A model generated the notes under the pieces. It worked only from the letters and a program-made list of their open reading frames with translations. It ran no database searches and was not told where the DNA came from. A program made the translations under genes and the position numbers. A stretch of 64,000 nt of DNA from a virus, in the IMG/VR virus record IMGVR_UViG_3300046777_001715, positions 42,257 through 106,256 of that record; one strand, 5' to 3'. Position 1 is the stretch's first letter. Every line of letters starts with the position of its first letter. Positions 39,002 through 64,000 of this stretch are shown here, one piece after another.

Positions 39002-39014
39002 TCTTTATAACCTG

Positions 39015-39036
39015 GGGCCAGTCTATTGACTGGCCC
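39015..39036 (+). terminator. Terminator hairpin overlapping next promoter
   Basis: GGGCCAGTC (39015-39023) pairs perfectly with GACTGGCCC (39028-39036) around TATT. The following tract (TAAGTTATTT) is only moderately T rich. The -35 box of the next promoter (TTGACT) lies in the loop and right arm. Confidence 0.65.
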
Positions 39037-39054
39037 TAAGTTATTTAGTAGAAT
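39026..39054 (+). promoter_or_regulatory. Leaderless promoter embedded in terminator
   Basis: TTGACT (39026-39031), 17 bases and TAGAAT (39049-39054) lie 7 bases before the ATG at 39062, without a ribosome site. The -35 is inside the terminator hairpin of the SSB gene. Confidence 0.6.
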
Positions 39055-47549: not shown

Positions 47550-47872
47550 AGCCAGTATTTGAAGATGTAAGAGACTTTAATTGCTCAGATCTATATTTAA
47601 AATCAGTTAGTGCTCCTTCAGGCGCTAAAATTTGGGGAGCATGCCATGAAATTGCACATCTTTTGATTGAAAAAAATATCTCATATGGTGATTCAGCGCT
47701 AAACCCTGCACGTATATTTTCTTCGGCGGATGCAACAGAACAATTAAAGGTCCGTATTGATGATAAATTAAATAGAGTTATGCATAATCAAGGCTATGCT
47801 GGAGATAACGATATTGATGATTTAATTGGATATTTGGTTTTATATAAGATTGCAAAGGCTCAACTCAATTGA
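47543..47872 (+). CDS. Hypothetical protein (DUF-type, phage)
   Basis: ATG at 47543 gives 109 residues and a 7-base overlap with the methyltransferase gene; the longer frame from 47504 would overlap more and lacks a good ribosome site. The sequence (AKIWGACHEIAHLLIEKNISYGDSALNPARIFSS ... LKVRIDDKLNRV) is typical of small phage proteins with a conserved YGDSALNP motif. The next gene begins at a perfect promoter that overlaps this stop. Confidence 0.6.
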   Translation: MLKPVFEDVRDFNCSDLYLKSVSAPSGAKIWGACHEIAHLLIEKNISYGDSALNPARIFSSADATEQLKVRIDDKLNRVMHNQGYAGDNDIDDLIGYLVLYKIAKAQLN

Positions 47873-47897
47873 CATTTTAGTCGACTAAAAGTATAAT
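47869..47897 (+). promoter_or_regulatory. Consensus leaderless terminase promoter with operator-like palindrome
   Basis: TTGACA (47869-47874), a 17-base spacer and TATAAT (47892-47897) match consensus fully. ATG 47904 follows the -10 by 6 bases without a ribosome site. The spacer is occupied by TTTTAGTCGACTAAAA (47875-47890), a perfect 16-bp palindrome well placed to act as a repressor or activator site. Confidence 0.8.
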
Positions 47898-51124: not shown

Positions 51125-51694
51125 ATGGCAGAAGAAACAAGACACCCAAATGCAGTAAAGGTTTTGGCGGCAGCCAGAAAGTATGCTGAAGAAGGGTACA
51201 CAGAAGGACCAAACAACGATACAATTTTTGGAAAGCGCTATGGCATGAACAATCAACCATGGTGTGCAATGTTTGTATCAGGTTGTTTTGATGATGCAGG
51301 GCTAGTTCATCTAGTTGCGGCATCTACAAAGAAGGGCTTTGCATCTTGCGATGCAGGAGCACAGTGGTTTGCAAAGAACAAGAGAATTGTTCCGATTGGG
51401 CAAGCACAAGCAGGAGACGTAGTATTCTTTAACTTTGACAAGACACCAACTGACACAGAGCATGTTGGAATTGTAATTTCAAATGATGGAAAAAATCTTA
51501 TTACTTACGAAGGAAATACATCTGGAGATTCAAAGGGATCGCAGGCAAATGGTGACGGCGTATTTAAGAAGAAAAGAGCCTACAGCCTTGTAATGTCAGT
51601 TGCAAGACCAGATTGGGATGCACCAGCACCAGCTGCTAAGCCAGCAGCTAAGAAGGCAGCTCCAGTCAAGAAGGCAGTTGCAAAGAAGAAGTAA
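51125..51694 (+). CDS. CHAP-domain endolysin
   Basis: The 189-residue protein has a CHAP amidase/endopeptidase domain: NQPWCAMFVS with catalytic Cys47, TEHVGIVIS with His113, and YEGNTSG with the third polar residue near 129-131. It would cut peptidoglycan peptide bonds to release virions. The C-terminal 35 residues are Ala/Pro/Lys rich (PAAKKAAPVKKAVAKKK) and could bind the acidic cell wall. No signal peptide, so a holin is needed; candidates lie at 56.1-56.5 kb. It has its own promoter and a good ribosome site. Confidence 0.82.
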   Translation: MAEETRHPNAVKVLAAARKYAEEGYTEGPNNDTIFGKRYGMNNQPWCAMFVSGCFDDAGLVHLVAASTKKGFASCDAGAQWFAKNKRIVPIGQAQAGDVVFFNFDKTPTDTEHVGIVISNDGKNLITYEGNTSGDSKGSQANGDGVFKKKRAYSLVMSVARPDWDAPAPAAKPAAKKAAPVKKAVAKKK

Positions 51695-51698
51695 GTTT

Positions 51699-51707
51699 TG
51701 CTATAAT
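51699..51707 (+). promoter_or_regulatory. Extended -10 promoter for Hsp20 gene
   Basis: TTGCTATAAT with TATAAT at 51702-51707 begins right after the endolysin stop. The predicted RNA starts within a 10-bp perfect stem. Confidence 0.6.
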
Positions 51708-51740
51708 AATATACGGGTCGCCTTCGGGGGCCCGTATATT
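51708..51740 (+). terminator. Hairpin at start of Hsp20 transcript / end of endolysin
   Basis: AATATACGGG (51708-51717) and CCCGTATATT (51731-51740) form a perfect 10-bp stem; the loop contains a further CC-TTCG-GG turn. It overlaps the predicted transcription start. It could end the endolysin transcript, or cap and stabilise the Hsp20 mRNA, or both. The following AATTTATTT is only weakly terminator-like. Confidence 0.6.
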
Positions 51741-51769
51741 AATTTATTTGCTTAAAAAGGAGAAATAAA

Positions 51770-53671: not shown

Positions 53672-56080
53672 TTGACTGGAAAGGTTAAACTTCTCTTAAC
53701 CAGCCTTATTGTTATAGGCTGGCTTTTCCTTTTTGGGCCAACTAATGCACATGCTGAAGAGGTTACAGTTCAAGTAACGCCAGCAAATCCATCTTCAGAT
53801 ACCGCCACAGCAACCACTCCTGTTACAGTTGAGATAGTTGCAAATAAAGTAGAGGCGGCAGAAACAACGCTACAGGCGGCAGCTCAAACACAGGCAAATA
53901 CGATCATATCTACAATCCAATCAAATGTGCCAAATACAGATACTCAGACTGCTACCCAAATTGCTACAACTCAAGAGCCAATTGCAACTGCAGTTGCAGA
54001 GGCTACAGTCAAGGTTCAAGAGGCTAACAATGCAATACAATCTGCTGAAACAGCAGTCACAGTTGCAGCAACAGCTCAAGCAGCAGTTGAATCACAAACT
54101 GCAGTAGTTGCCACAGCAACAACAAATTTAAATAATGCTCAAACAAATTTAAATACAGTAACTCAACAGGTTGAGTCTCAAACTGCTGTAGTTGCTACAG
54201 ACACCACAAACCTTGCTACAGCTCAAGCTGCAGCCGATGCTTCAGCCGTAGAAACAACAACTAATGGAATTGAGGTAACAACATACGCATCACCTGGAGG
54301 ACAGCAGCCACCACTTCCAGCAGAAAATGCGACACCACTTTCAACCACAACAGTTCCTTATATTGCTCACCAATTTGGAAGCGGACAGGTATTTAATTCT
54401 GGCAGAGTAGACAATGTAATTGTTAAATTTGAAGGAACAATTACTGTTCCAGAAGAAGCAGTAACAGTAAAGTATGCAATTCATTCAGATGACGGCGCAA
54501 AGATGTATGTAGACGGGCAACTTGCAATCAATGAATGGATTGATAAAGGTGGAGGATGGAGTCAATATTCTCCAACTTATAATACAACTACAGACAAGCA
54601 ACAGGACTTTACTATTTGGTACTATGAAAATGGTGGAGGGTCACAAGTTATACTTGGCTGGCTAATAATGAGACAAGATGGAAGTGGATATTTTACTACT
54701 CCAAATCAAACGGCATTTGCAACTACAGTAGTAACAAAAGACCCAGTATTAGTTGCTGCAGTTGCTACCGCACAGACAACTCTCAATAATGATACTGCAG
54801 TTCTTAATACTCTTACTGCACAAAAGACTGCAGCAGAAGAAGTAGTTGCAGATAAGACAGAGGTAAAGGCAGAAGAAGTTGCTACATTAAATCAGCTTAC
54901 AGAAACTGCTACAGCAACAGTTCAAGCAGCAGACACCCTTGCTAACACAGCAACAACAAAAGTAAATGAAGCAGTAACTGCAATGACAAATGCAGCACAG
55001 GTTACAGTTAATTATTATGCAGAGCAACAAGCAGCAGCGCAAGCCGCTGCAAATGCCGCAGCCGCAGCTGCAGCAGCACAAGCAGCACAAGAAGCGGCAG
55101 CAGCGGAAGCTGCAGCACAACAAGCAGCTGCACAAGCAGCAGCTGCAGAAGCAGCAAGAGTTAAAGCAGAAGCAGAAGCCAAAGCAGCAGCCGAAGCTGC
55201 TGCAAAAGCAGAAGCAGAAGCCAAAGCAGCAGCCGAAGCTGCTGCTAAAGCAGAAGCAGACCGTATAGCAGCAGAAGAAGCCGCTGCTAAAGCAGAAGCT
55301 GATCGTATAGCTGCAGAAGAAGCAGCAGCTAAAGCTGAAGCAGAAGCAAAAGAAAAAGCAGAGGCAGATGCAAAAGCAGAAGCAGACAGACTAGCAGCAG
55401 AGGCAGAAGCTAAAGCGCAAGCAGAGGCAGATGCAAAGGCTGAAGCAGAGGCCAAGGCTCAAGAGGAAGCAAACGCAAAGGCTGAGGCAGAAGCTAAAGC
55501 GCAAGCAGAGGCAGATGCAAAAGCAGAAGCTGAAGCAAAGGCTGCGGAGGCAGAAAAAGCTAAGGCAGAAGAAGAAGCATTAAAGAAAGCAGCAGAAGAA
55601 GGCAAACTAACTGAAGAGCAAAAAGAAGTTGTAGTAGAAAAACTTATACAAAATCTTGCTCCAGGAGAATCTATTTCAGTAGCAGAAATTAAAGCAGCAG
55701 GAGTTTCTTATTCAGATTTGCCACCATCAACACCAGTTGAAGTTCGTACAGATGAAAATGGAAACGCTCTTGTAATTACTGCAGCTGTCGCTGCACAAGT
55801 TGAGCTTGTGCAAAATCCAGCAGCTTTGGTAGAAGAATTATTTACTAATCCAGCAGCGGCAATAGCAGCTCTTGGAAGCATTGGTGCAGATATGACTGAA
55901 GAAGAAAGAGAAGAAGCAACAGATATGGTTGTTGCTACAGTTGTTGCAGCAGGTGCCGCTATTAATGCAGTAGGAGCGGCAGCAGGAGGCGCCACTGGAG
56001 GTGGCACAGGCGGAGGAGGAAGTTCTGGTGGAGGCTCAGGAGCTAATTCACCAGGTTCACGAGGAGGAAGAAGATGGTAA
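53672..56080 (+). CDS. Secreted PA14/alanine-rich coiled-coil protein
   Basis: The 802-residue protein starts at TTG behind GGAGAG. A signal peptide is seen (hydrophobic core LLLTSLIVIGWLFLFG, cleavage after AHA). A PA14/GLEYA-like beta domain lies near 215-350 (KYAIHSDDGAKMYVDGQLAINEW; FTIWYYENGGGSQVILGW), flanked by helices. Residues about 450-650 are an Ala/Lys/Glu coiled coil built from AEAKA and AEADRIAAEE repeats. Near 740-775 a hydrophobic stretch precedes a Gly/Ser-rich tail ending RRW. It is probably exported and may span the cell wall; an adhesin, lysis accessory or superinfection-blocking role is possible. Confidence 0.7.
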   Translation: MTGKVKLLLTSLIVIGWLFLFGPTNAHAEEVTVQVTPANPSSDTATATTPVTVEIVANKVEAAETTLQAAAQTQANTIISTIQSNVPNTDTQTATQIATTQEPIATAVAEATVKVQEANNAIQSAETAVTVAATAQAAVESQTAVVATATTNLNNAQTNLNTVTQQVESQTAVVATDTTNLATAQAAADASAVETTTNGIEVTTYASPGGQQPPLPAENATPLSTTTVPYIAHQFGSGQVFNSGRVDNVIVKFEGTITVPEEAVTVKYAIHSDDGAKMYVDGQLAINEWIDKGGGWSQYSPTYNTTTDKQQDFTIWYYENGGGSQVILGWLIMRQDGSGYFTTPNQTAFATTVVTKDPVLVAAVATAQTTLNNDTAVLNTLTAQKTAAEEVVADKTEVKAEEVATLNQLTETATATVQAADTLANTATTKVNEAVTAMTNAAQVTVNYYAEQQAAAQAAANAAAAAAAAQAAQEAAAAEAAAQQAAAQAAAAEAARVKAEAEAKAAAEAAAKAEAEAKAAAEAAAKAEADRIAAEEAAAKAEADRIAAEEAAAKAEAEAKEKAEADAKAEADRLAAEAEAKAQAEADAKAEAEAKAQEEANAKAEAEAKAQAEADAKAEAEAKAAEAEKAKAEEEALKKAAEEGKLTEEQKEVVVEKLIQNLAPGESISVAEIKAAGVSYSDLPPSTPVEVRTDENGNALVITAAVAAQVELVQNPAALVEELFTNPAAAIAALGSIGADMTEEEREEATDMVVATVVAAGAAINAVGAAAGGATGGGTGGGGSSGGGSGANSPGSRGGRRW
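55163..55245 (+). repeat. 42-base tandem repeat in coiled coil
   Basis: Two near-perfect copies of a 42-base unit (14 codons, KAEAEAKAAAEAAA) are followed by two diverged AKAEADRIAAEEAA units. This in-frame tandem repetition extends the coiled coil of the secreted protein and could vary in number between relatives. Confidence 0.65.
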
Positions 56081-56253
56081 GAGTAATAAAAAATATCTTA
56101 AAGGATATGGTTGACCAAGCATGGACGCTTCTCGGAATGTTTATTGCTTGGGTAGTTCTGGACGGAAGTGCAAAGACTGTTGTTGGTTATGGAATTGTGG
56201 CAACAACTGCTCTTTGGATAATTACAAGTCCGATCAGAAATAGGGAGGATTAA
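56074..56253 (+). CDS. Small two-helix membrane protein, holin candidate
   Basis: This 59-residue frame begins at ATG 56074 inside the end of the secreted protein gene (7-base overlap) and ends 2 bases before the next start. It has two hydrophobic segments, AWTLLGMFIAWVVL and VVGYGIVATTALWIIT, and charged ends, like short class II holins. GAGGAGGAAG lies upstream. Translation is plausible but the gene is short. Confidence 0.55.
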   Translation: MVRVIKNILKDMVDQAWTLLGMFIAWVVLDGSAKTVVGYGIVATTALWIITSPIRNRED

Positions 56254-56255
56254 AA

Positions 56256-56546
56256 ATGGCAAAAGCACATATTGAAGAGCCAACACAGGTTGGATCTGGA
56301 GCAATTGCAAGCATTAATAATATTTTTATGAGAATTGTTGCTGTATTTGCAGCATCAGGTCTTTCAGTAATTGGAGCAGGAGCAGTAGTCGGAATTGAAA
56401 CATACAAGGCTGTCATTCTTGCAGGAACATTAGGGGTAGCAACAGTTGTTGAAAAGCTAGCTCGTGGATTCCTAGATGATGGAAAGCTAACTATTGACGA
56501 AATTAATAATGCATTTTCAGCAGTAGATAAAAAAGCTCAAAAGTAG
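56256..56546 (+). CDS. Holin (two-TM) candidate
   Basis: The 96-residue product has GGGAGG 7 bases before its ATG. Two hydrophobic helices, IFMRIVAVFAASGLSVIGAGAVVGI and AVILAGTLGVATVVEKLA, are followed by a charged C terminus (DDGKLTIDEINNAF). This layout is standard for actinophage holins that form the membrane lesion for the endolysin. It lies 5 kb after the endolysin, together with another small membrane protein. Confidence 0.65.
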   Translation: MAKAHIEEPTQVGSGAIASINNIFMRIVAVFAASGLSVIGAGAVVGIETYKAVILAGTLGVATVVEKLARGFLDDGKLTIDEINNAFSAVDKKAQK

Positions 56547-56552
56547 TATAAT
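56547..56552 (+). promoter_or_regulatory. Leaderless promoter for 48-aa protein
   Basis: TATAAT (56547-56552) overlaps the holin stop and is 6 bases before ATG 56559. No ribosome site; -35 is weak. Confidence 0.5.
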
Positions 56553-56558
56553 ATATAC

Positions 56559-56705
56559 ATGGACCAATATAAGGTAAAAATAGAAGCAGATCTAGAAATA
56601 GAGGCATTTTCTGCCGAAGATGCTGCAGACTATGTAAAAGATATTATTGGTACTGACCAAGAGGTAAAAGCAGTAAATATTAAAAAAATTACAAAAATTA
56701 ATTGA
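56559..56705 (+). CDS. Small leaderless protein (48 aa)
   Basis: The frame MDQYKVKIEADLEIEAFSAE... runs to TGA at 56703-56705. The sequence has a beta-alpha-beta character (YKVKIEADLEIEAFSAEDAADYVKDII ... VKAVNIKKITKIN) like small ferredoxin-fold domains. It is placed 6 bases after a TATAAT without ribosome site, the same geometry as seven other genes here, which supports it. Function unknown. Confidence 0.5.
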   Translation: MDQYKVKIEADLEIEAFSAEDAADYVKDIIGTDQEVKAVNIKKITKIN

Positions 56706-56712
56706 AATTTGA

Positions 56713-56742
56713 TTGACAAGGCCCCGTAGCAAACAGTATAAT
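56713..56742 (+). promoter_or_regulatory. Promoter inside terminator loop, drives tRNA-Asn
   Basis: TTGACA (56713-56718), 18 bases and TATAAT (56737-56742). The spacer contains the left arm of the hairpin below and the -10 is in its loop. The RNA should start near 56749 and run into tRNA-Asn. Confidence 0.7.
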
Positions 56743-56759
56743 AGATACTACGGGGCTTT
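56718..56759 (+). terminator. Terminator wrapped around a promoter
   Basis: AAGGCCCCGTAG (56718-56729) pairs with CTACGGGGCTTT (56748-56759) with an 18-base loop containing the TATAAT. RNA from upstream can fold the full hairpin; RNA started from the internal promoter has only the right arm, so it escapes termination. Confidence 0.7.
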
Positions 56760-56764
56760 GCTAT

Positions 56765-56837
56765 TGGCTCATAGCTCAGTCGGCAGAGCGGGAAGCTGTT
56801 AACTTCTAGGTCCCTGGTTCGAGTCCAGGTGGGCCAG
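56765..56837 (+). tRNA. tRNA-Asn (GTT anticodon)
   Basis: Acceptor TGGCTCA/TGGGCCA, anticodon stem GGAAG/CTTCT with loop CTGTTAA (GTT at 56798-56800), T arm CCTGG-TTCGAGT-CCAGG. Discriminator G, no encoded CCA. Confidence 0.92.
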
Positions 56838-56854
56838 CAAAAGAAAAGGAAAAT

Positions 56855-57085
56855 ATGAACATCAAGGAAAACAAAGTTAATCAATTTATTAAAAACTTTA
56901 AGACAGATTATCAAGAAGCTTTTTGGGATGGATATACTTTAATTGTTTGGAAGAAAGATGCAACAGGTTTTTCAAACAAAAGAGGAATGTTTAGAAACAA
57001 TACTTGGGGGCTGACCAACAGATTCCCTTTAACTAATGGCGGAGATTGGGATCTCCCTGACAGATATGTCAAATATATTAAGTAG
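56855..57085 (+). CDS. Small hypothetical protein before WhiB
   Basis: The 76-residue protein has AAAGGAAAA upstream. FIKNFKTDYQEAFWDGYTLIVWKKD and NTWGLTNRFPLTNGGDWDLPDRYVKYIK give an aromatic, basic domain. It overlaps the WhiB start by 20 bases. Conserved in layout with small actinophage proteins but no family can be named. Confidence 0.55.
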   Translation: MNIKENKVNQFIKNFKTDYQEAFWDGYTLIVWKKDATGFSNKRGMFRNNTWGLTNRFPLTNGGDWDLPDRYVKYIK

Positions 57086-57377
57086 TCTAGGCGTAGACCC
57101 AGATGATTTTGAATGGTGGCATCTTGCGGCATGCAATGGGATGGACACAAACTTATTTTACGATAAGTATGAAGCAGATTTTAATATAGCAAAAAGTGTA
57201 GACGAATGTTGTTTAACATGTCCAGTAGCAAAAGATTGTTTAAGAGCTGGAATTGAAAACAATGAATACGGAGTATGGGGCGGGATATACTTAAACTCTG
57301 GTTCAACAGACAAAGCACGTAATATTCATAAAACAGAAGAAGTATGGAATAGGTTTAAGGTGAAGCATGGACATTAA
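57066..57377 (+). CDS. WhiB-family iron-sulphur regulator
   Basis: From ATG 57066 the protein has 103 residues. The four cysteines follow the WhiB pattern: HLAACNG, then CCLTCPVAKDC about 30 residues later, followed by GVWGG, the turn typical of the family. WhiB-like proteins hold a 4Fe-4S cluster and bind the primary sigma factor region 4 in Actinobacteria; phage copies can alter host transcription or superinfection. This is the strongest single sign of an actinobacterial host. The C-terminal basic tail (RFKVKHGH) may touch DNA. Confidence 0.88.
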   Translation: MSNILSSLGVDPDDFEWWHLAACNGMDTNLFYDKYEADFNIAKSVDECCLTCPVAKDCLRAGIENNEYGVWGGIYLNSGSTDKARNIHKTEEVWNRFKVKHGH

Positions 57378-57654
57378 TCAGTGGACAGGCGAATTAAATA
57401 AACCAGTTTTCTATACCAAAGAAATGGCTACAAAAGTAAGAGAACTTAAGCAACCAGTTCATGGACTACAAATGGACATAGTTAAGTTTCCAGAATTTTT
57501 GGCCATTAGGTTATATGAAGGAAATTTCATGCAGTATGGCGATTCTGAAAGAATGAGAATCATTGACTACATTGAAATGGTAAAACGTGTACTAGAATCC
57601 TACGGGGTTCGTGTTGAACTTGAGGGAGCAAAAGGTGAAAGAATATTACGATAA
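57367..57654 (+). CDS. Small hypothetical protein
   Basis: The 95-residue protein overlaps WhiB by 11 bases. It has YTKEMATKVRELKQPVHGLQMDIVKFPEFLAIRLYEGNF and a helical RMRIIDYIEMVKRVLESYGVRVELEG, a ferredoxin-like alternation of strands and helices. No family known. It lies in an operon of short genes after tRNA-Asn. Confidence 0.55.
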   Translation: MDINQWTGELNKPVFYTKEMATKVRELKQPVHGLQMDIVKFPEFLAIRLYEGNFMQYGDSERMRIIDYIEMVKRVLESYGVRVELEGAKGERILR

Positions 57655-57829
57655 AGTTTGTATTGTATTTTTGCACGAAGATCAGGTATATGGGGACGTA
57701 GAGTCTCTTGGAACGTATGCGTCAGTGGTGAGATACACCAAGGACGGAATAGATTATGAAGAGCTTGTAGAGAATAGCGAATTTACTATAATGGATGAAT
57801 TCGTATTGTCACATGTAGAGGAAGAATAA
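57635..57829 (+). CDS. Small hypothetical protein
   Basis: GTG at 57635 behind GAGGGAG is chosen over an in-frame GTG at 57611. The 64-residue protein (VVRYTKDGIDYEELVENSEF) is beta-rich and acidic at the end, like small phage proteins that may adopt an SH3-like fold. It overlaps the previous gene by 20 bases and its stop overlaps the next ATG. Function unknown. Confidence 0.5.
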   Translation: MKEYYDKVCIVFLHEDQVYGDVESLGTYASVVRYTKDGIDYEELVENSEFTIMDEFVLSHVEEE

Positions 57830-58065
57830 TGGAAAAGATTTTATGTTACTCTTGCAGCAAAAGCAAGAATAAACTAAATACAAGAAAATCAGCGCTATTA
57901 ACAATTAATTTGTTAATGTGCGAGACATGTATTGTATCTAAGTTTGAGCCACGCTGGGTAGTTATTTTGGCTGGAAGACAATTTGGATCTGATCATGTTA
58001 AAGAATATATCATTAAAAAGAGATATATTGGTCAACCAATATTAGCAGATGAGTTGCTAGTTTAG
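57829..58065 (+). CDS. Small zinc-ribbon-like protein
   Basis: The 78-residue protein has CYSCSKSKNKL and, 25 residues later, CETCIVSKFEPRWVVILAGRQFG, a two-CxxC zinc-binding pattern followed by a conserved-looking strand. Such short zinc proteins are common in actinophages next to WhiB-type genes. No function known. Confidence 0.6.
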   Translation: MEKILCYSCSKSKNKLNTRKSALLTINLLMCETCIVSKFEPRWVVILAGRQFGSDHVKEYIIKKRYIGQPILADELLV

Positions 58066-58076
58066 CATACATTTGT

Positions 58077-58085
58077 TGGTATAAT
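58077..58085 (+). promoter_or_regulatory. Leaderless extended -10 promoter
   Basis: TTGGTATAAT (-10 at 58080-58085) is 6 bases before ATG 58092, with no ribosome site and no convincing -35. Confidence 0.55.
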
Positions 58086-58091
58086 TAATAT

Positions 58092-58385
58092 ATGCCAATG
58101 ACAAGAGAACAAATGATATTAATGCTGCTTATGGCAGTATTAGGTGGCACTGGCGCAAGATTTATAGAGTTTCTTGGGAAAAGAAAATCTGAAAAATTGT
58201 ATCAAAATGAGATAGACCACAGCAAGGTTGAGCTCAGGCTTGAGCTGGAAAAGCTTAAAAATAAGCTGCTGGTCTCTGAAAATGAATTATTAGTTTGGCA
58301 GGCTAAATACTATGAAACCCTTGAGAAATTAGCCAAAGTTAACTATGAATTAAGCGAATTACTGTCTAAATTAAAAATACATTAA
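58092..58385 (+). CDS. Membrane-anchored coiled-coil protein
   Basis: The 97-residue product has an N-terminal hydrophobic helix (MILMLLMAVLGGTGARF) and a long coiled coil (VELRLELEKLKNKLLVSENELLVWQAKYYETLEKL). The topology resembles small spanin- or Rz-like or anti-holin proteins, but actinophages rarely need spanins. It has a leaderless promoter. Role in lysis or membrane protection is possible. Confidence 0.55.
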   Translation: MPMTREQMILMLLMAVLGGTGARFIEFLGKRKSEKLYQNEIDHSKVELRLELEKLKNKLLVSENELLVWQAKYYETLEKLAKVNYELSELLSKLKIH

Positions 58386-58391
58386 TTAGAC

Positions 58392-58420
58392 TGGACATCG
58401 AATTTTAAATATTATAGAAT
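58392..58420 (+). promoter_or_regulatory. Leaderless promoter
   Basis: TGGACA (58392-58397), 17 bases and TAGAAT (58415-58420); ATG 58427 lies 6 bases further, with no ribosome site. Confidence 0.65.
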
Positions 58421-58426
58421 GGTACT

Positions 58427-58663
58427 ATGATATCTGAGAAAAGACTTAAGTGGTATGGCCTTGGGCTGACCATAGTAACAAATATTTTCATTGTGTGGTT
58501 TATGTGGCACAGGTGGAAAACTGGGCAGGATCTTTTAATTCCGATCATCTTGCTACTGGTTCTTAAAATTAGAATCAATCAATACCTGCAAGAACAAAAG
58601 GTAGAGAACTTAATACAACTTCTTAATAAAGCAGCAAAGCCTAGATCAAGGAAGATTACATAA
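58427..58663 (+). CDS. Small two-TM membrane protein
   Basis: The 78-residue protein has hydrophobic helices WYGLGLTIVTNIFIVWFMW and LIPIILLLVLKI and a basic C terminus (KAAKPRSRKIT). It is leaderless and lies between another membrane protein and an Ntn hydrolase. Could be a holin, antiholin or membrane-remodelling protein; sequence does not decide. Confidence 0.55.
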   Translation: MISEKRLKWYGLGLTIVTNIFIVWFMWHRWKTGQDLLIPIILLLVLKIRINQYLQEQKVENLIQLLNKAAKPRSRKIT

Positions 58664-58666
58664 GAA

Positions 58667-59227
58667 ATGACATGCGTCGTTGGGTTGGTAAAGTCGGGTA
58701 AAATCTACATGGGCTCTGACTCATCGGCAGTTGATGTTGCAGGCGGACATATCTTTGCACAAAAAAATCCAAAAGTATTTATGGTTGGACAGTATGGAAT
58801 AGCTTTTACCGATTCTTTTAGAATGGGGCAAATTCTTCAATACGACTGGACGCCACCAAAATTTACTGGAAACTCTAGAACCCTAGACAAATTTATGAGA
58901 ACTAAATTTGTAGAATCTGTTAAAGAAGCATTTAAGTCTGGCGGATACGGAAATATTGGTAATCAGTCTGAAAATGAAGACAGTGGCGGAGTATTTTTAA
59001 TTGGGGTAAAAGGAACTGGAAGATTATTCTATATGGATGACGACTTTCAGATTGGAGAAAACATACTTCCTTATTATGCAGAAGGAATTGGAATGGATTT
59101 TGCCCTAGGATCTCTTTACTCTACTCAAACCATGAGGGACCCATTTAAGAGGCTTGAGATAGCCTTAGCAGCGGCATCACAATTCTCCATAGGAGTATGT
59201 CCACCATATCACTATATAGAGCTTTAA
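58667..59227 (+). CDS. Proteasome-like Ntn hydrolase
   Basis: The 186-residue protein starts MTCVVGLVKSGKIYMGSDSSAVD, the proteasome-beta/HslV pattern in which Thr2 becomes the N-terminal nucleophile after loss of Met. KVFMVGQYGIAFTDSFRMGQIL (Lys near 36) and the later YAEGIGMDFALGSLYSTQ (a G-x-G-x-x-x-A-x-G segment near 145-160) match the core of the fold. Such enzymes are peptidases or amidohydrolases. Lack of a propeptide suggests direct activation by methionine aminopeptidase. An actinobacterial host may itself have a proteasome; a phage homologue could compete with or replace it. No hslU-like ATPase is nearby. Confidence 0.7.
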   Translation: MTCVVGLVKSGKIYMGSDSSAVDVAGGHIFAQKNPKVFMVGQYGIAFTDSFRMGQILQYDWTPPKFTGNSRTLDKFMRTKFVESVKEAFKSGGYGNIGNQSENEDSGGVFLIGVKGTGRLFYMDDDFQIGENILPYYAEGIGMDFALGSLYSTQTMRDPFKRLEIALAAASQFSIGVCPPYHYIEL

Positions 59228-59231
59228 ACTA

Positions 59232-59260
59232 TTGACAAACCCCTACTCATTTTATAGAAT
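59232..59260 (+). promoter_or_regulatory. Consensus leaderless promoter for subtilase
   Basis: TTGACA (59232-59237), 17 bases and TAGAAT (59255-59260), 6 bases before ATG 59267. Confidence 0.7.
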
Positions 59261-59266
59261 AGAGAC

Positions 59267-60196
59267 ATGAATAAAATAACCAAGGCTCTTGTAGCCATAC
59301 TAATTACAGCAAGTACTACAGCAGGATATACTGCAGTCACGGCTCATGCTGAGCCAACTAAAACATCAGTAGTTGTTATTGATACAGCAATTGATGCATC
59401 ACTTCCAATTTTTAAGGGAAGACTTGTACAAGAAGTTTGTGCAATGGAATGGAATCTTTGTCCAAATGGAACTGGTTTTCAGGAAGGCCCTGGATCAGCA
59501 TCAACAATTCCTTTTACAGCTTTAAGATCTTCTTCTTTTAATCATGGTACACAAATGGCTTCAATTGCGGTAAACGCAAATGCCAATGTCAGCATAATTT
59601 TTATTCGTATTGTTGGTTTAACTAAAGAAGGTTACCGTGCAAGCACAACAGAAGCTTCAGTGGTAAAAGCTTTAGACTGGGTAATTGCAAACAAAGATAA
59701 GTATGGAATTGCAGCAGTAGCGATGAGTCAAGGAAATCATGACCTTGCTACCTACAACATTCTGTGCCCAAAGAGTAATCTGATTAAATATATTGACACA
59801 TTAAAGTCTATTGATATTCCTTTAATGCTACCAGCAGGAAATGATGCGGATATTACAAGAGTTGATTATCCAGCATGCATTCCACAAGCAGTAACAATTG
59901 GTGCTGTTGATAAATTTAACAATATCAATACTTATAGCAATGGAACACCATTGCAAGTTGATTTCTATACACCAGGAACAGTAAAAGCAATTCTTCCAGG
60001 TGGAACACAAACAACCGTTGCTGGAACATCTGCATCTGTGCAAAGTGCAGCCGTGCATTGGGCAACAGTAAAAATGGTTAAGCCAAACTTAACTTATGAT
60101 CAAATTTATACACTCTTAAAGACCACATCTACATTAACAAGTAATGCTAAGGTAAAGAATGGATCTTTAATTAATATAGAAAAGGCGACAAAATAA
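59267..60196 (+). CDS. Secreted subtilisin-like serine protease (S8)
   Basis: The 309-residue protein has a signal peptide (ALVAILITASTTAGYTAVTAHA, cleavage near 28) and a complete S8 catalytic set: Asp39 in VVVIDTAID, His93 in FNHGTQMAS, Asn193 in LPAGND and Ser256 in VAGTSASVQSA. It should be exported and cleave extracellular or cell-surface proteins. A propeptide is not obvious, so maturation may be simple. Leaderless promoter. A secreted protease is rare in phages; it may act on the host surface or on competing material. Confidence 0.82.
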   Translation: MNKITKALVAILITASTTAGYTAVTAHAEPTKTSVVVIDTAIDASLPIFKGRLVQEVCAMEWNLCPNGTGFQEGPGSASTIPFTALRSSSFNHGTQMASIAVNANANVSIIFIRIVGLTKEGYRASTTEASVVKALDWVIANKDKYGIAAVAMSQGNHDLATYNILCPKSNLIKYIDTLKSIDIPLMLPAGNDADITRVDYPACIPQAVTIGAVDKFNNINTYSNGTPLQVDFYTPGTVKAILPGGTQTTVAGTSASVQSAAVHWATVKMVKPNLTYDQIYTLLKTTSTLTSNAKVKNGSLINIEKATK

Positions 60197-60450
60197 TGGA
60201 AAAAGATCCAATGATTGAAAAACAACAGTCAATGCTGGAAGGAATTGTGGCAGATATTGTTGTTGAGCTTTACCAAAAGTGGTTTAATCAAATGCCAGAA
60301 GAGCAACAGAAGGACGAGCAGGCAATTGCCGTACTGGGCGGTAACGCTTCAGAGGCAACATATTTTGTTGTCCAGCGCTTTATGGAAAAGTTTAACGCTG
60401 CAGCAGAGCAGGTTAAGCAGGAAGAAGAGCAGTCTAAGGATAATGCCTAA
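60196..60450 (+). CDS. Small acidic helical protein
   Basis: The 84-residue protein starts by 1-base overlap with the protease stop. It is helical and Gln/Glu rich (EGIVADIVVELYQKWFNQMPEEQQKDEQ ... FVVQRFMEKFNAAAEQVKQEEEQ). It overlaps the next short gene by 8 bases. No family recognised. Confidence 0.55.
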   Translation: MEKDPMIEKQQSMLEGIVADIVVELYQKWFNQMPEEQQKDEQAIAVLGGNASEATYFVVQRFMEKFNAAAEQVKQEEEQSKDNA

Positions 60451-60625
60451 GATAGCACTTGTAAATTCAGCAATATATGATATCATTGAACCTGACAGTT
60501 CTTTTGAAACAGAGCTTGTAGACATCCCTCAACCTATACTTGATAGATATGACAGGGTAATGAAAGATTTCTGGGACATTCAAAACGAACTAGAACAATA
60601 TCAAAGAGCACAGGAGAATGACTAA
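60443..60625 (+). CDS. Small hypothetical protein
   Basis: ATG 60443 behind TAAGGA is chosen over a longer open frame that starts at 60215 inside the preceding gene and is improbable in composition. The 60 residues (MPKIALVNSAIYDIIEPDSSFETELVDIPQPILDRYDRVMKDFWDIQ) end in a helix. It is followed within 1 base by thioredoxin. Function unknown. Confidence 0.55.
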   Translation: MPKIALVNSAIYDIIEPDSSFETELVDIPQPILDRYDRVMKDFWDIQNELEQYQRAQEND

Positions 60626-60928
60626 GTGATTGTTACTGACGCAAACTTTGATGTTGTTATTGCTGAAAACAAAATAGTTTTGGTAGATTTTTGGGCAGAA
60701 TGGTGTGGTCCTTGTAAAAAGGTTTCACCAATTCTAGATGAGATTTCTCAAGAAAAGAATCTGCTAGTGGCTAAGGTTAACATTGATGATAACCAAATTA
60801 AGCCAAAAGATTATGGTGTGGCTTCAATCCCAACTATGATCTTGTTTAAAGATGGACAACCAGTAACTACAATTATTGGTGCAAAACCGAAACATGTTCT
60901 GCTAAAAGAATTGGCAGAATACATTTAA
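60626..60928 (+). CDS. Thioredoxin
   Basis: The 100-residue protein begins at GTG one base after the previous stop. It has the thioredoxin fold with FWAEWCGPCKKV (active site CGPC near 29-32), a cis-proline in VASIPTMILFKDG, and the ending LKELAEY. It reduces disulphides; in T7 the host thioredoxin is a polymerase processivity factor, but here a redox or halogenase/Fe-enzyme support role is as likely. Genes around it encode secreted proteins and a flavin enzyme. Confidence 0.85.
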   Translation: MIVTDANFDVVIAENKIVLVDFWAEWCGPCKKVSPILDEISQEKNLLVAKVNIDDNQIKPKDYGVASIPTMILFKDGQPVTTIIGAKPKHVLLKELAEYI

Positions 60929-60970
60929 AATTCTGTGCTCACAAAGAGGCAGATAAACTAAGGAGAAAGA

Positions 60971-61993
60971 ATGAACTCATTCAAGAAAGTATCGCTAATC
61001 ATCGCTGCAGCCCTGACTAGCACAATGCTTGTATCGCCAGCAGCTAAGGCTAACGCTGGAACTGTCACACTAACGGTGGCGGGATCTGCAGCAACAGGTG
61101 GAACAGTAGTAGGAACTCCTGTATCACTACCAGTGCCAGCAGACAACAGCATCGATGCAGCAGACGCATTGAAGATTGCTGTAACTTCTGTAGATACTGG
61201 AACAGTAGTAACAGCTGTTGCAACAAATGCAACAATTGTACCTGCTCTAGCAACATCAGCATCACCAGTAACCGCATCAAGCGGATCTTCAACGCTTTCC
61301 ATTTCAACAGGAACTGGAAACTCAGCAGACTTTTATGTATATACTAAAAGTACAGCAGTAGGAACAGTATCGATTACTCGTGCTGGGACTACAACAGTTT
61401 ACTATGTTCAGGGACAAGCAGGTGCCCTAAACTCAATCGCTTTGACTGCGCCAACATCTGGAGCAGCAGGCACAACAGCAACACTTAAGGTGACTGGATA
61501 CGATGTATTTGGAAACGCTAAGGGTGGAGCAACAATTAACACTCTAGTATCTTCAAATGGCGTTGCAACAGCAACAGCTCTTACAACAGATACAGCAACA
61601 GCAACACTTGGAACAAAGGAACAAACACTAACGCTTCCTGCTTTAGGTTCAGTTGTTGTTACAGCATACGCAACAGTTGCAACAGCAGTGACTGGTCTTT
61701 CAACACCAGTAGGTGCAGTAACTGCAACAATTACAGTTCGTGATCTTGCAGGAGAACTTGCAGCAAAGATTGCAGAACTTGCAGTAGCAAATGCAGCACT
61801 TGCAGCAGAAAAGGCTGGACGTGCAGCAGATAAGGCAGCTGCAGACTCAGCAGCAGCAAAGGCAACAGCCGATGCAGCAACAGCAAAGGCAGCAGCAGAC
61901 CTTGCTCGTGCAACATATGTTGCAGAGTACAATGCTTTGGCAAGAAAGTGGAACGCCAAGAATCCAAAGGCCAGGGTTGCACTAAAGAAGTAA
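60971..61993 (+). CDS. Secreted surface-layer-like protein
   Basis: The 340-residue protein has a signal peptide (SLIIAAALTSTMLVSPAAKA), Thr/Val/Ala-rich Ig-like domains (about 30-250) and a C-terminal coiled coil (GELAAKIAELAVANAALAAEKAGRAADKAAA) ending YNALARKWNAKNPKARVALKK. This layout resembles cell-surface proteins of low-GC freshwater actinobacteria, so it may have come from a host. It would be exported and could coat the infected cell. It has AAGGAG and CGT-biased arginine codons in the tail. Function inferred. Confidence 0.6.
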   Translation: MNSFKKVSLIIAAALTSTMLVSPAAKANAGTVTLTVAGSAATGGTVVGTPVSLPVPADNSIDAADALKIAVTSVDTGTVVTAVATNATIVPALATSASPVTASSGSSTLSISTGTGNSADFYVYTKSTAVGTVSITRAGTTTVYYVQGQAGALNSIALTAPTSGAAGTTATLKVTGYDVFGNAKGGATINTLVSSNGVATATALTTDTATATLGTKEQTLTLPALGSVVVTAYATVATAVTGLSTPVGAVTATITVRDLAGELAAKIAELAVANAALAAEKAGRAADKAAADSAAAKATADAATAKAAADLARATYVAEYNALARKWNAKNPKARVALKK

Positions 61994-62010
61994 TAAATAG
62001 TTAATTACTA

Positions 62011-62040
62011 TTGACAACAAGGCTGGGGATATTATATAAT
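62011..62040 (+). promoter_or_regulatory. Promoter inside terminator loop for halogenase
   Basis: TTGACA (62011-62016), 18 bases and TATAAT (62035-62040). The spacer carries the left arm of the hairpin described next. RNA should start near 62047. Confidence 0.75.
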
Positions 62041-62061
62041 GATTATAGTATCCCCAGTTTT
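62023..62061 (+). terminator. Terminator wrapped around halogenase promoter
   Basis: CTGGGGATA (62023-62031) pairs with TATCCCCAG (62049-62057), loop of 17 bases containing the -10, then TTTT. It terminates the upstream surface-protein mRNA while the internal promoter starts the next one past the left arm. Confidence 0.75.
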
Positions 62062-62083
62062 AACTATTAGAGAAAGAATTTAA

Positions 62084-63667
62084 ATGAATAAGGTAGATAA
62101 GGTAGTAATTTTAGGCGGAGGCTCTGCTGGTTGGATGACCGCAGCAACTTTAATTCACAATTTTCCAGAAAAAGAAATTGTTTTAGTGGAAAGCCCAGAT
62201 ACACCAAGAATCGGTGTTGGAGAAAGCACCTTAGCAGGACTACCTGCATGGCTTAGGTCAATTGATGTTGACTACAAAGATTTTATGAAGTACACAGATG
62301 CTTCTTTTAAACTCAGTATTAAGTTTACAGATTTCCACAAAGTTGGAGATGGAGGATTCCATTATCCGTTTGGACATCCTTTTCTAGGAAACACAACTCT
62401 TCCAAACGCTAATGACTGGCATATGCTAAAGCATTATGTCCCAGAAACAACAACACAAAGTTATGTAGAAGCACTATTTCCACAGTCTGTATTACTAGAA
62501 ACAAACAAGATCATGAACCCTAAAAAGCGTGAGCTTGAAGACTTCACCCTAGAAAGAGATTTTGCACTACATTTTGATGCAATTAAGTTTGCAGACTGGC
62601 TGGCTGACAAATATTCAAAGCCAAGAGGTGTAAAGCACGTAATTGGACACGTTGAAAACGTTGTCACAAATGAAGACGGTGTTGAAAAACTTGTACTGAA
62701 AGATGGTCAAGAAATATTGGCAGACTTATTCATTGACTGCACAGGGTTTAAGAGCATGCTTCTCGGTGGAGCAATGCAAGAAGAGTTTATCTCTTGTGCT
62801 GACAAGCTCCCAGTTAATAGAACTTGGGCTGTTCAAATCCCGTATGTTGATGCAGAGAATGAAATCCAAAACTTTACAGAATCAACCGCATTAGGTTATG
62901 GCTGGGTATGGAATGCTCCACTTTATTCAAGAATTGGAACTGGTTACGTATACTCTGATAGATTTACAACACCAGAAGAAGCTCTAGAAGAATTTAAGGT
63001 ATATCTAAGAAAAAGATTTGGCGAAGAAAGAATTAATGATTCTCTTAAGTTTAATGATATTAGATTTAAGTCTGGAACATATCGCAGAACTTGGGTAAAG
63101 AATGTTATTGGAATTGGTTTGTCAGCCACATTCCTTGAGCCACTAGAAAGCAACGGGCTATTCTTTATTCACGAGTCAGCAAATACGCTTGTAAAGTTTT
63201 TGCGTAGAGGCTATGTAAATGGAATTGACATTGATTTCTATAATGCTACAGTAAGAAAGCATTTTGACTTCTTTTCATCTTTCTTGGAATACCACTATGT
63301 TCTATCTCAAAGACGAGACACTTCTTTCTGGAAGTATATGACAGAAAGACCAATTGAGCCTTACTTAGCAGAACTTCCAGTGGGAGGACTTTATCAAGAA
63401 GAGCAACAAATGAAAACAACTCAACAGTCTTATCCAGTTGTTTTAACAAGCGGATTCCATTGTATTGCAGTTGGGCACGAGTACTATCCAGTAGATCCAA
63501 TTTCAATTAGCTATTGGCAGTACCATTATGATACAGACTATAAAAAGGTTGCTGGTGACTTTTATATTAAGACAGAAAAGTCTCAAAAGAACTGGCTGAA
63601 GGCTGTAGAAAATGCACCAACACATTATCAATATCTGAAAGAAAACTTTCATAAGGAAGGAATGTAA
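62084..63667 (+). CDS. Flavin-dependent tryptophan halogenase
   Basis: The 527-residue protein shows the family marks: FAD-binding GGGSAGWMTA (11-20), the GVGESTL loop (about 44-50), catalytic lysine in SFKLSIKF (Lys76), GYGWVWNAPLYSRIGTGYVYS (about 271-291; the second half of the usual WxWxIP is NAP), and LEPLESNGLFF (351-361), which carries the active-site glutamate. Such enzymes need FADH2 from a reductase and chlorinate or brominate tryptophan or related indoles. No reductase is in view. It has its own promoter, and the stop overlaps a membrane protein gene. Confidence 0.85.
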   Translation: MNKVDKVVILGGGSAGWMTAATLIHNFPEKEIVLVESPDTPRIGVGESTLAGLPAWLRSIDVDYKDFMKYTDASFKLSIKFTDFHKVGDGGFHYPFGHPFLGNTTLPNANDWHMLKHYVPETTTQSYVEALFPQSVLLETNKIMNPKKRELEDFTLERDFALHFDAIKFADWLADKYSKPRGVKHVIGHVENVVTNEDGVEKLVLKDGQEILADLFIDCTGFKSMLLGGAMQEEFISCADKLPVNRTWAVQIPYVDAENEIQNFTESTALGYGWVWNAPLYSRIGTGYVYSDRFTTPEEALEEFKVYLRKRFGEERINDSLKFNDIRFKSGTYRRTWVKNVIGIGLSATFLEPLESNGLFFIHESANTLVKFLRRGYVNGIDIDFYNATVRKHFDFFSSFLEYHYVLSQRRDTSFWKYMTERPIEPYLAELPVGGLYQEEQQMKTTQQSYPVVLTSGFHCIAVGHEYYPVDPISISYWQYHYDTDYKKVAGDFYIKTEKSQKNWLKAVENAPTHYQYLKENFHKEGM

Positions 63668-63963
63668 TGAAATTTAGAACACAATGGATAGAGGCTTTAA
63701 AGACAATGAGATACAAGTCTTATTGGAATAGGCCAAACACAGTAGAGTTTTTTGCATTTATGACTAAGATTGCAATTATTTTCCCAGGACTATTGCTTGG
63801 CAAGCAGTTTTGGTGGTTGTTTATTTTTGCATTTATTTCAAGCTTAGCTTTGATTTGGTCATCTACAGTAAAAACATTGCCAACTATTATTTGGTTTAAC
63901 ATTCTGTGGACAATCCTTGCAGCACTATCAATTGCTAAACATTTTGGATTAATCCTACAGTGA
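63667..63963 (+). CDS. Small membrane protein after halogenase
   Basis: The 98-residue protein starts by 1-base overlap. Two or three hydrophobic segments (TKIAIIFPGLLLGKQFWWLFIFAFISSLALIW; TIIWFNILWTILAALSI) indicate a membrane protein. Coupling to the halogenase suggests a shared function or simple operon packing. No family known. Confidence 0.6.
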   Translation: MKFRTQWIEALKTMRYKSYWNRPNTVEFFAFMTKIAIIFPGLLLGKQFWWLFIFAFISSLALIWSSTVKTLPTIIWFNILWTILAALSIAKHFGLILQ

Positions 63964-63971
63964 CATTGGAC

Positions 63972-64000
63972 ATGCGTGGAATACCAACAGCGGCTTGCCC
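63972..64000 (+). CDS. Start of a short protein, 3'-truncated by window edge
   Basis: ATG 63972 opens MRGIPTAAC and the frame runs to the window end. The beginning resembles short actinophage zinc-binding proteins that start MRGIPT..CP, but only nine codons are visible. Low confidence. Confidence 0.3.

Follow-up and report, generated by a model that had tools for sequence, protein, structure and literature searches.

Positions 62011-62065 of the window, the whole 64,000-nucleotide stretch of viral DNA that was analysed, most probably form a selected composite of two control elements, an intrinsic terminator for the upstream transcription unit and a promoter for the downstream one, in which RNA started at the promoter itself would escape the hairpin and the two units would be insulated from each other. 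The case is built on the anatomy of the site, its recurrence, the covariation of its arms, the T-tract behind them, its position between units and the stand-alone terminators that relatives have at orthologous junctions. The sequence-only reading of this DNA had proposed a terminator acting on upstream RNA, a promoter in its loop and self-started RNA devoid of the left arm. Comparison with related phages strongly supports this arrangement, and the RNA start and end sites, like termination efficiency and insulation in vivo, stand as predictions.

The window belongs to a virus contig of 106,256 bases, on which a portal protein, a head maturation protease, a terminase and a DnaE-type polymerase are encoded. 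Those of its relatives that bear a name are Stanwilliamsviridae phages of Streptomyces (48-51% identity in the head protease, about 50-56% in WhiB) and, therefore, actinobacterial hosts are likely for this virus family.

Architecture of the element at 62011

The element lies on the plus strand and reads TTGACA-ACAAGG-CTGGGGATATTATA-TAATGAT-TATAGTATCCCCAG-TTTTAACT. Its promoter matches the sigma-70 consensus at 12 of 12 bases, with the -35 hexamer TTGACA at 62011-62016 and the -10 hexamer TATAAT at 62035-62040, separated by an 18-bp spacer; the window holds four exact TTGACA-N16-19-TATAAT sites, against 0.14 expected. The left arm of the hairpin (62023-62036) lies within this spacer and extends into the -10, and it pairs with a right arm at 62044-62057, with one T.G pair and a loop of 7 nt, in a fold of -24.6 kcal/mol (z = -6.25 against dinucleotide shuffles). 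Transcription is predicted, from the spacing to the -10, to start near 62047, within the right arm. The T-tract TTTTAACT (62058-62065) follows 3' of that arm, and the 3' ends of upstream RNA are predicted nearby. Every part named in the sequence-only reading is present at its position and in the order given there, including the arms CTGGGGATA (62023-62031) and TATCCCCAG (62049-62057) and the TTTT at 62058-62061. The hairpin itself is borne out, with a stem of 14 bp that is longer than first reported, and the placing of TATAAT in the loop is right for its last four bases but not for the first two, which are paired at the inner end of the stem.

The site thus has a GC-rich stem of at least about 7 bp that is stable in RNA, a U-tract encoded directly 3' of it by TTTTAACT, which is short compared with textbook examples, and a location on the same strand after the last gene of a unit, as intrinsic terminators do; it also has the -35 and -10 hexamers at the 16-18 bp spacing of sigma-70-type promoters. 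A search of 56000-64000 with the Rfam 15 covariance models gave a tRNA as the sole match above gathering score, leaving the element without a family. A simple terminator scan of the window listed neither this element nor its second copy described below, probably because the scan accepts a limited range of loop lengths and of start points for the T's.

The gene upstream (60971-61993, plus strand) encodes 340 aa with an alanine-rich C terminus and no Pfam match, and its stop codon lies 17 nt upstream of the -35. The unit 5' of the element also contains genes for a subtilisin-like protease (59267-60196) and a thioredoxin (60626-60928). Downstream, on the same strand, a flavin-dependent (tryptophan) halogenase is encoded at 62084-63667, as indicated by Pfam PF04820 (E=6e-104) and by its relatives; its start codon is about 26-27 nt 3' of the stem end at 62057, and the nested promoter would serve this gene.

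Recurrence in the same genome

A hairpin scan and inspection of the sequence revealed a second promoter-in-terminator element at 56713-56764 on the plus strand, with the layout TTGACA-AG-GCCCCGTAG-CAAACAGTATAATAGATA-CTACGGGGC-TTTGCTAT. Its -35 TTGACA (56713-56718) is followed by the left arm GCCCCGTAG (56721-56729), a -10 TATAAT that is entirely in the loop (56737-56742), the right arm CTACGGGGC (56748-56756) and the tail TTTGCTAT (56757-56764), and the arms are unrelated to those at 62011. Behind it, on the same strand, come a tRNA-Asn as the first product (56765-56838, identified by tRNA match), a gene of 76 aa and the gene of a WhiB-family regulator (57036-57377; Pfam PF02467, E=2.8e-12); phage Annadreamy has the same order of tRNA, small gene and WhiB. 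Of the four exact consensus promoters in the 106-kb record, two thereby have their -10 inside a T-tailed hairpin, and no further clear nested element was found in the record's first 43 kb. The element had initially been tied to the halogenase; it does stand at that gene, but it is not special to it, as a second copy stands before the tRNA-Asn/WhiB operon and others are present in further phages.

A third fusion, in another register, was recognised from the sequence at 39007-39054 (plus strand). It consists of a terminator-like hairpin at 39007-39044, a -35 TTGACT (39026-39031) located in its loop and right arm, and a -10 TAGAAT (39049-39054) 17 nt further on; this register, with the -35 in the loop, matches that of the Streptomyces phages. 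Two other promoter sites of the window have palindromes or hairpins of a different kind. At 47869-47897, 5' of the gene that precedes the terminase, an exact promoter has the palindromic spacer TTTTAGTCGACTAAAA, the sequence of which is kept in relatives (about TTTTAGTYRACTARAA), and this palindrome looks like an operator. At 51690-51745, a TATAAT stands immediately 5' of a strong hairpin that has a 13-bp stem and a tail rich in T; here a promoter seems to run straight into a terminator, perhaps as an attenuator or to produce a small RNA.

Conservation at the WhiB junction

The orthologous WhiB junction was compared in 80 viral-contig loci, from which 44 distinct promoters were read. A nested stem is found in 26 of the 28 distinct promoters with an 18-bp spacer, the other two having no strong stem, and in essentially none of the 16 with a 17-bp spacer, lineages being counted more than once in these and the following statistics on related sequences. 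Among 25 unique rows and seven consecutive pairs (positions 9-15 counted from the start of TTGACA), a single cell out of 175 is non-standard and 52 changes are two-sided. When the downstream half of a locus was combined with the upstream half of another that had a different spacer, the proportion of strong stems fell from 75% to 7.9%. The pairing register is that of the best stem of each sequence, which favours pairing, and the swap is a fair control because the mixed halves are given the same choice.

The run of T's is retained together with the pairing. In 32 elements, the 8 nt after the GC core contain 4.8 T on average against a background of 2.2, and at least three T's are found among the first four bases after the core in 26 of them. 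These T's are kept even opposite left-arm bases that are not complementary to them, as a terminator needs and a DNA palindrome would not. The -35 is usually a few bases from the upstream stop codon, the hairpin lies close to that codon at nearly all of these junctions, and the loops reach 26 nt, longer than those of textbook terminators. Lack of conservation of the arms had been named as one observation that would speak against the element, and a search of related phages for hairpins with a -10 in the loop as a way to examine it. Such hairpins were found, and in them the letters of the arms turn over almost completely, with pairing and T-tract preserved. Since the letters change fast and pairing, promoter and T-run are kept, evolution appears to maintain a two-in-one switch. 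In a freshwater subclade with a 17-bp spacer (L386-L412, mostly with a tRNA-Leu close behind), neither a nested nor an upstream hairpin was found at the WhiB junction; this subclade would have lost the hairpin or never had one, and the terminator is therefore not essential there.

Layouts of the junction in cultured phages

The same junction is organised in several ways in cultured phages. A plain hairpin that resembles a terminator stands alone in EGole, Tomas, StarPlatinum and Rhodococcus phage Weasels2. In BillNye and Byblos a terminator comes first and a promoter distinct from it follows, the two spanning more than 100 bp. In Annadreamy, Francob, Karp and Coruscant the two are fused with TTGACA, and not the -10, in the loop; in this form the 18-bp spacer is filled by the right arm and the T-tract, and the -10 comes immediately after. 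Strong terminators with the -35 in the loop lie 5' of the WhiB operon in cultured Streptomyces phages at L774 37720-37770, L775 1593-1670, L776 1286-1363, L777 605-680 and L783 694-750, and in Gilson the element sits one gene further upstream. Some junctions have no recognisable promoter. From their sequences, all these layouts would end the upstream unit, and most of them would also start the downstream one; such a common function fits a terminator, and agrees with neither an operator nor a fixed-sequence cruciform. These junctions are, at the level of sequence comparison, the strongest argument for the hairpin as a terminator. The separate promoter of Byblos (L779 720-750; TGTTGACATTTGC...GCAAATGCTAACA) and that of BillNye (L778 725-760) are themselves within an inverted repeat, which is possibly an operator or a second hairpin.

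Halogenase loci in relatives

The nearest relative (L005) has a site identical to 62011 and is, for that reason, uninformative on conservation. In the L455 group, whose halogenase is 65% identical and in which the end of the upstream gene is similar, the arrangement is kept, with a compensated change from a C-G to a T-A pair adjoining the GGGG/CCCC core. More distant halogenase loci (L458, L468, L470, L499, L502, L516, L524 and L528) have nested hairpins with wholly different arms, and the genes upstream of distant relatives are often unrelated to that of the window. Many further halogenase loci have no nested hairpin, so the device is common and not obligatory. The L006/L014/L459 site has a T-tract and a hairpin directly behind TTGACA; it lacks a good -10 at normal distance and was left out of the clear nested promoters. 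In L499, L502, L516, L524 and L528 the right arm holds a GGAGG ribosome site immediately 5' of the halogenase ATG; because of these relatives, both uses of such a hairpin, in termination and in covering a ribosome site, may exist at one gene.

Occurrence in other sequences

Across 3.7 Mb of related phage loci, a strong stem surrounds the -10 in 10 of the 42 distinct exact TTGACA-N18-TATAAT sites. Promoter classes other than this one are at background for nested stems in the same loci, as are relaxed promoters with one or two mismatches, and a global count at a lower threshold (17, against 8-14 in permutations) is unimpressive alone; the signal is concentrated in the exact sites with an 18-bp spacer. 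The counts for unselected viral contigs and for bacterial genomes, all of them among the matches listed, are to be taken as indications and not as frequencies. In viral contigs, a strong nested stem occurs at 6 of 188 exact promoters with spacer 17 (permutation mean 0.36, maximum 2) and at 2 of 134 with spacer 18 (permutation 0.22, maximum 2). The register with the -35 in the loop is in mild excess in viral contigs at large, at the strong threshold, with 3 of 380 (0.46 expected, maximum 3). Bacterial genomes have nested sites at chance level, with 2 of 121 (shuffle mean 0.43, maximum 4).

Proposed mechanism and alternative explanations

The model proposes that a polymerase arriving from upstream would transcribe both arms, so that its RNA would fold into the GC-based hairpin with a short U-tract behind it, and that it would stop near 62060. 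A strong promoter of the sigma-70 type would share the same DNA, with the left arm in its spacer, the -10 in the loop and the start in the right arm. A polymerase starting near 62047 would make the right arm only and continue into the halogenase gene, as its RNA cannot form the hairpin because the left arm is absent. The two units would in this way be insulated with no additional DNA, and the element at 56713 would likewise separate the unit upstream of it from the tRNA-Asn/WhiB operon. The T-tracts are short, with 3-5 T that are often followed by G or C; since they are short and the loops at the WhiB sites are long, the efficiency of termination could be modest.

A chance overlap of a hairpin and a strong promoter is scarcely credible. 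AT-rich DNA commonly has short inverted repeats, and bacterial genomes show the nested design at chance level, but two of this genome's four exact consensus sites are nested, relatives show compensatory change, and viral contigs at large exceed permutation (6/188 vs 0.36, among the matches listed). Chance is refuted by covariation at the WhiB site, and at 62011 by the compensated C-G to T-A pair of the L455 group. It could also be argued that the inverted repeat is an operator, bound by a dimeric repressor that covers the -10, as a palindrome over the -10 is a common operator layout and the promoter at 47869 of the same phage has a spacer palindrome conserved in sequence. An operator would, however, keep its letters, and here the arms have almost no sequence in common from locus to locus, or from one copy to the other in a single genome, with compensatory changes and no conserved half-site; the T-tract, moreover, is one-sided, after the right arm. 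Repressor binding is for these reasons a very improbable function of the repeat.

The hairpin could also act on translation, as in gene e of phage T4, where a hairpin formed only in read-through RNA hides the ribosome site and RNA from the inner promoter is free of it. The T4 genes e, soc and I-TevI, among others, are known cases (PMC3014915, PMC2988022), and the GGAGG in the right arm of the distant relatives L499, L502, L516, L524 and L528 agrees with this mechanism. RNA from the promoter at 62011 would similarly be devoid of the 5' arm, as the left arm ends at 62036 and the start is predicted near 62047. Neither the 62011 nor the 56713 element, however, has a ribosome site or start codon in an arm: the right arm in the window ends at 62057 with no Shine-Dalgarno sequence, about 26-27 nt before the ATG, and the product after the 56713 element is a tRNA. 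A translational lock was thus rejected for the window, where it is unlikely, and it explains the relatives only. A further question is whether insulation is all that the composite was selected for, or whether it actively couples the units, either by recycling, in which a terminated polymerase would re-initiate at the promoter that it has crossed, or, as the sequence-only reading suggested, by occlusion of the promoter by upstream transcription; the element allows both equally. After intrinsic termination, Escherichia coli RNA polymerase usually stays on the DNA and is able to start again at a nearby promoter (PMC6978380, PMC6978322), and termination here would fall about 20 bp from the -10. 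Space economy accounts for the fusion equally well, though, and relatives with a separate terminator and promoter manage without it, which leaves coupling as the selected function a rather doubtful proposal. It may be suggested, with no more than slight confidence, that promoter-in-terminator elements are a selected regulatory part in which re-initiation on a consensus promoter would feed the downstream operon and keep the RNAs separate, lineages having reached two registers, with the -10 or the -35 in the loop. Insulation by a terminator with a promoter inside it stays the preferred reading of the site.

Relation to known systems and significance

The closest known parallel is the group formed by T4 genes e (lysozyme), soc, I-TevI and segB and by Aeh1 mobE, in which a late promoter lies within a hairpin that contains the ribosome site (PMC3014915, PMC2988022). 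As proposed here, read-through RNA alone has both arms, and a transcript begun at the inner promoter, without the 5' arm, escapes the hairpin. In that group, however, it is translation that the hairpin blocks, and transcription starts from a phage late promoter, whereas the element in the window has a T-tract after the right arm, no ribosome site and a host-type TTGACA/TATAAT promoter; some of the halogenase relatives L499-L528 resemble T4 in carrying a ribosome site in the arm. Another parallel is the frd/ampC overlap of E. coli (Grundstrom and Jaurin 1982, as cited in PMC11838884). In the account given by that citation, one operon's terminator shares sequence with its neighbour's control region, which makes the junction compact, as in the window, but the ampC promoter is 5' of the terminator, which attenuates ampC itself, while RNA from the promoter in the window would skip the terminator by starting inside it. 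The terminator and separate promoter of BillNye and Byblos share functions, order and junction with the nested element, but take up more than 100 bp as two distinct sequences, where the nested element needs a single stretch of about 50 bp. Finally, E. coli RNA polymerase that has terminated intrinsically usually does not leave the DNA; it diffuses and is able to initiate again at promoters close by (PMC6978380, PMC6978322). Re-initiation close to the termination site would be favoured by the nested layout, although such recycling has been shown in vitro, for E. coli, with separate elements and not with a natural nested one (PMC6978380, PMC6978322).

In the literature searched, which included few subscription journals, no account was found of a terminator whose loop contains a conserved promoter. 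Escape from a hairpin by a promoter inside it (T4) and overlap of a terminator with a promoter region (frd/ampC) are already known, and the element is not categorically new. Gene-finding and terminator programs built for short loops and separate elements will overlook it, as the standard scan missed both copies. By this conserved arrangement these phages would close one transcription unit and open the next within about 50 bp, the layout itself setting which RNA is terminated. As the element occurs in cultured Streptomyces phages, it is testable, and it would offer a natural substrate for the question of polymerase recycling after termination in vivo.
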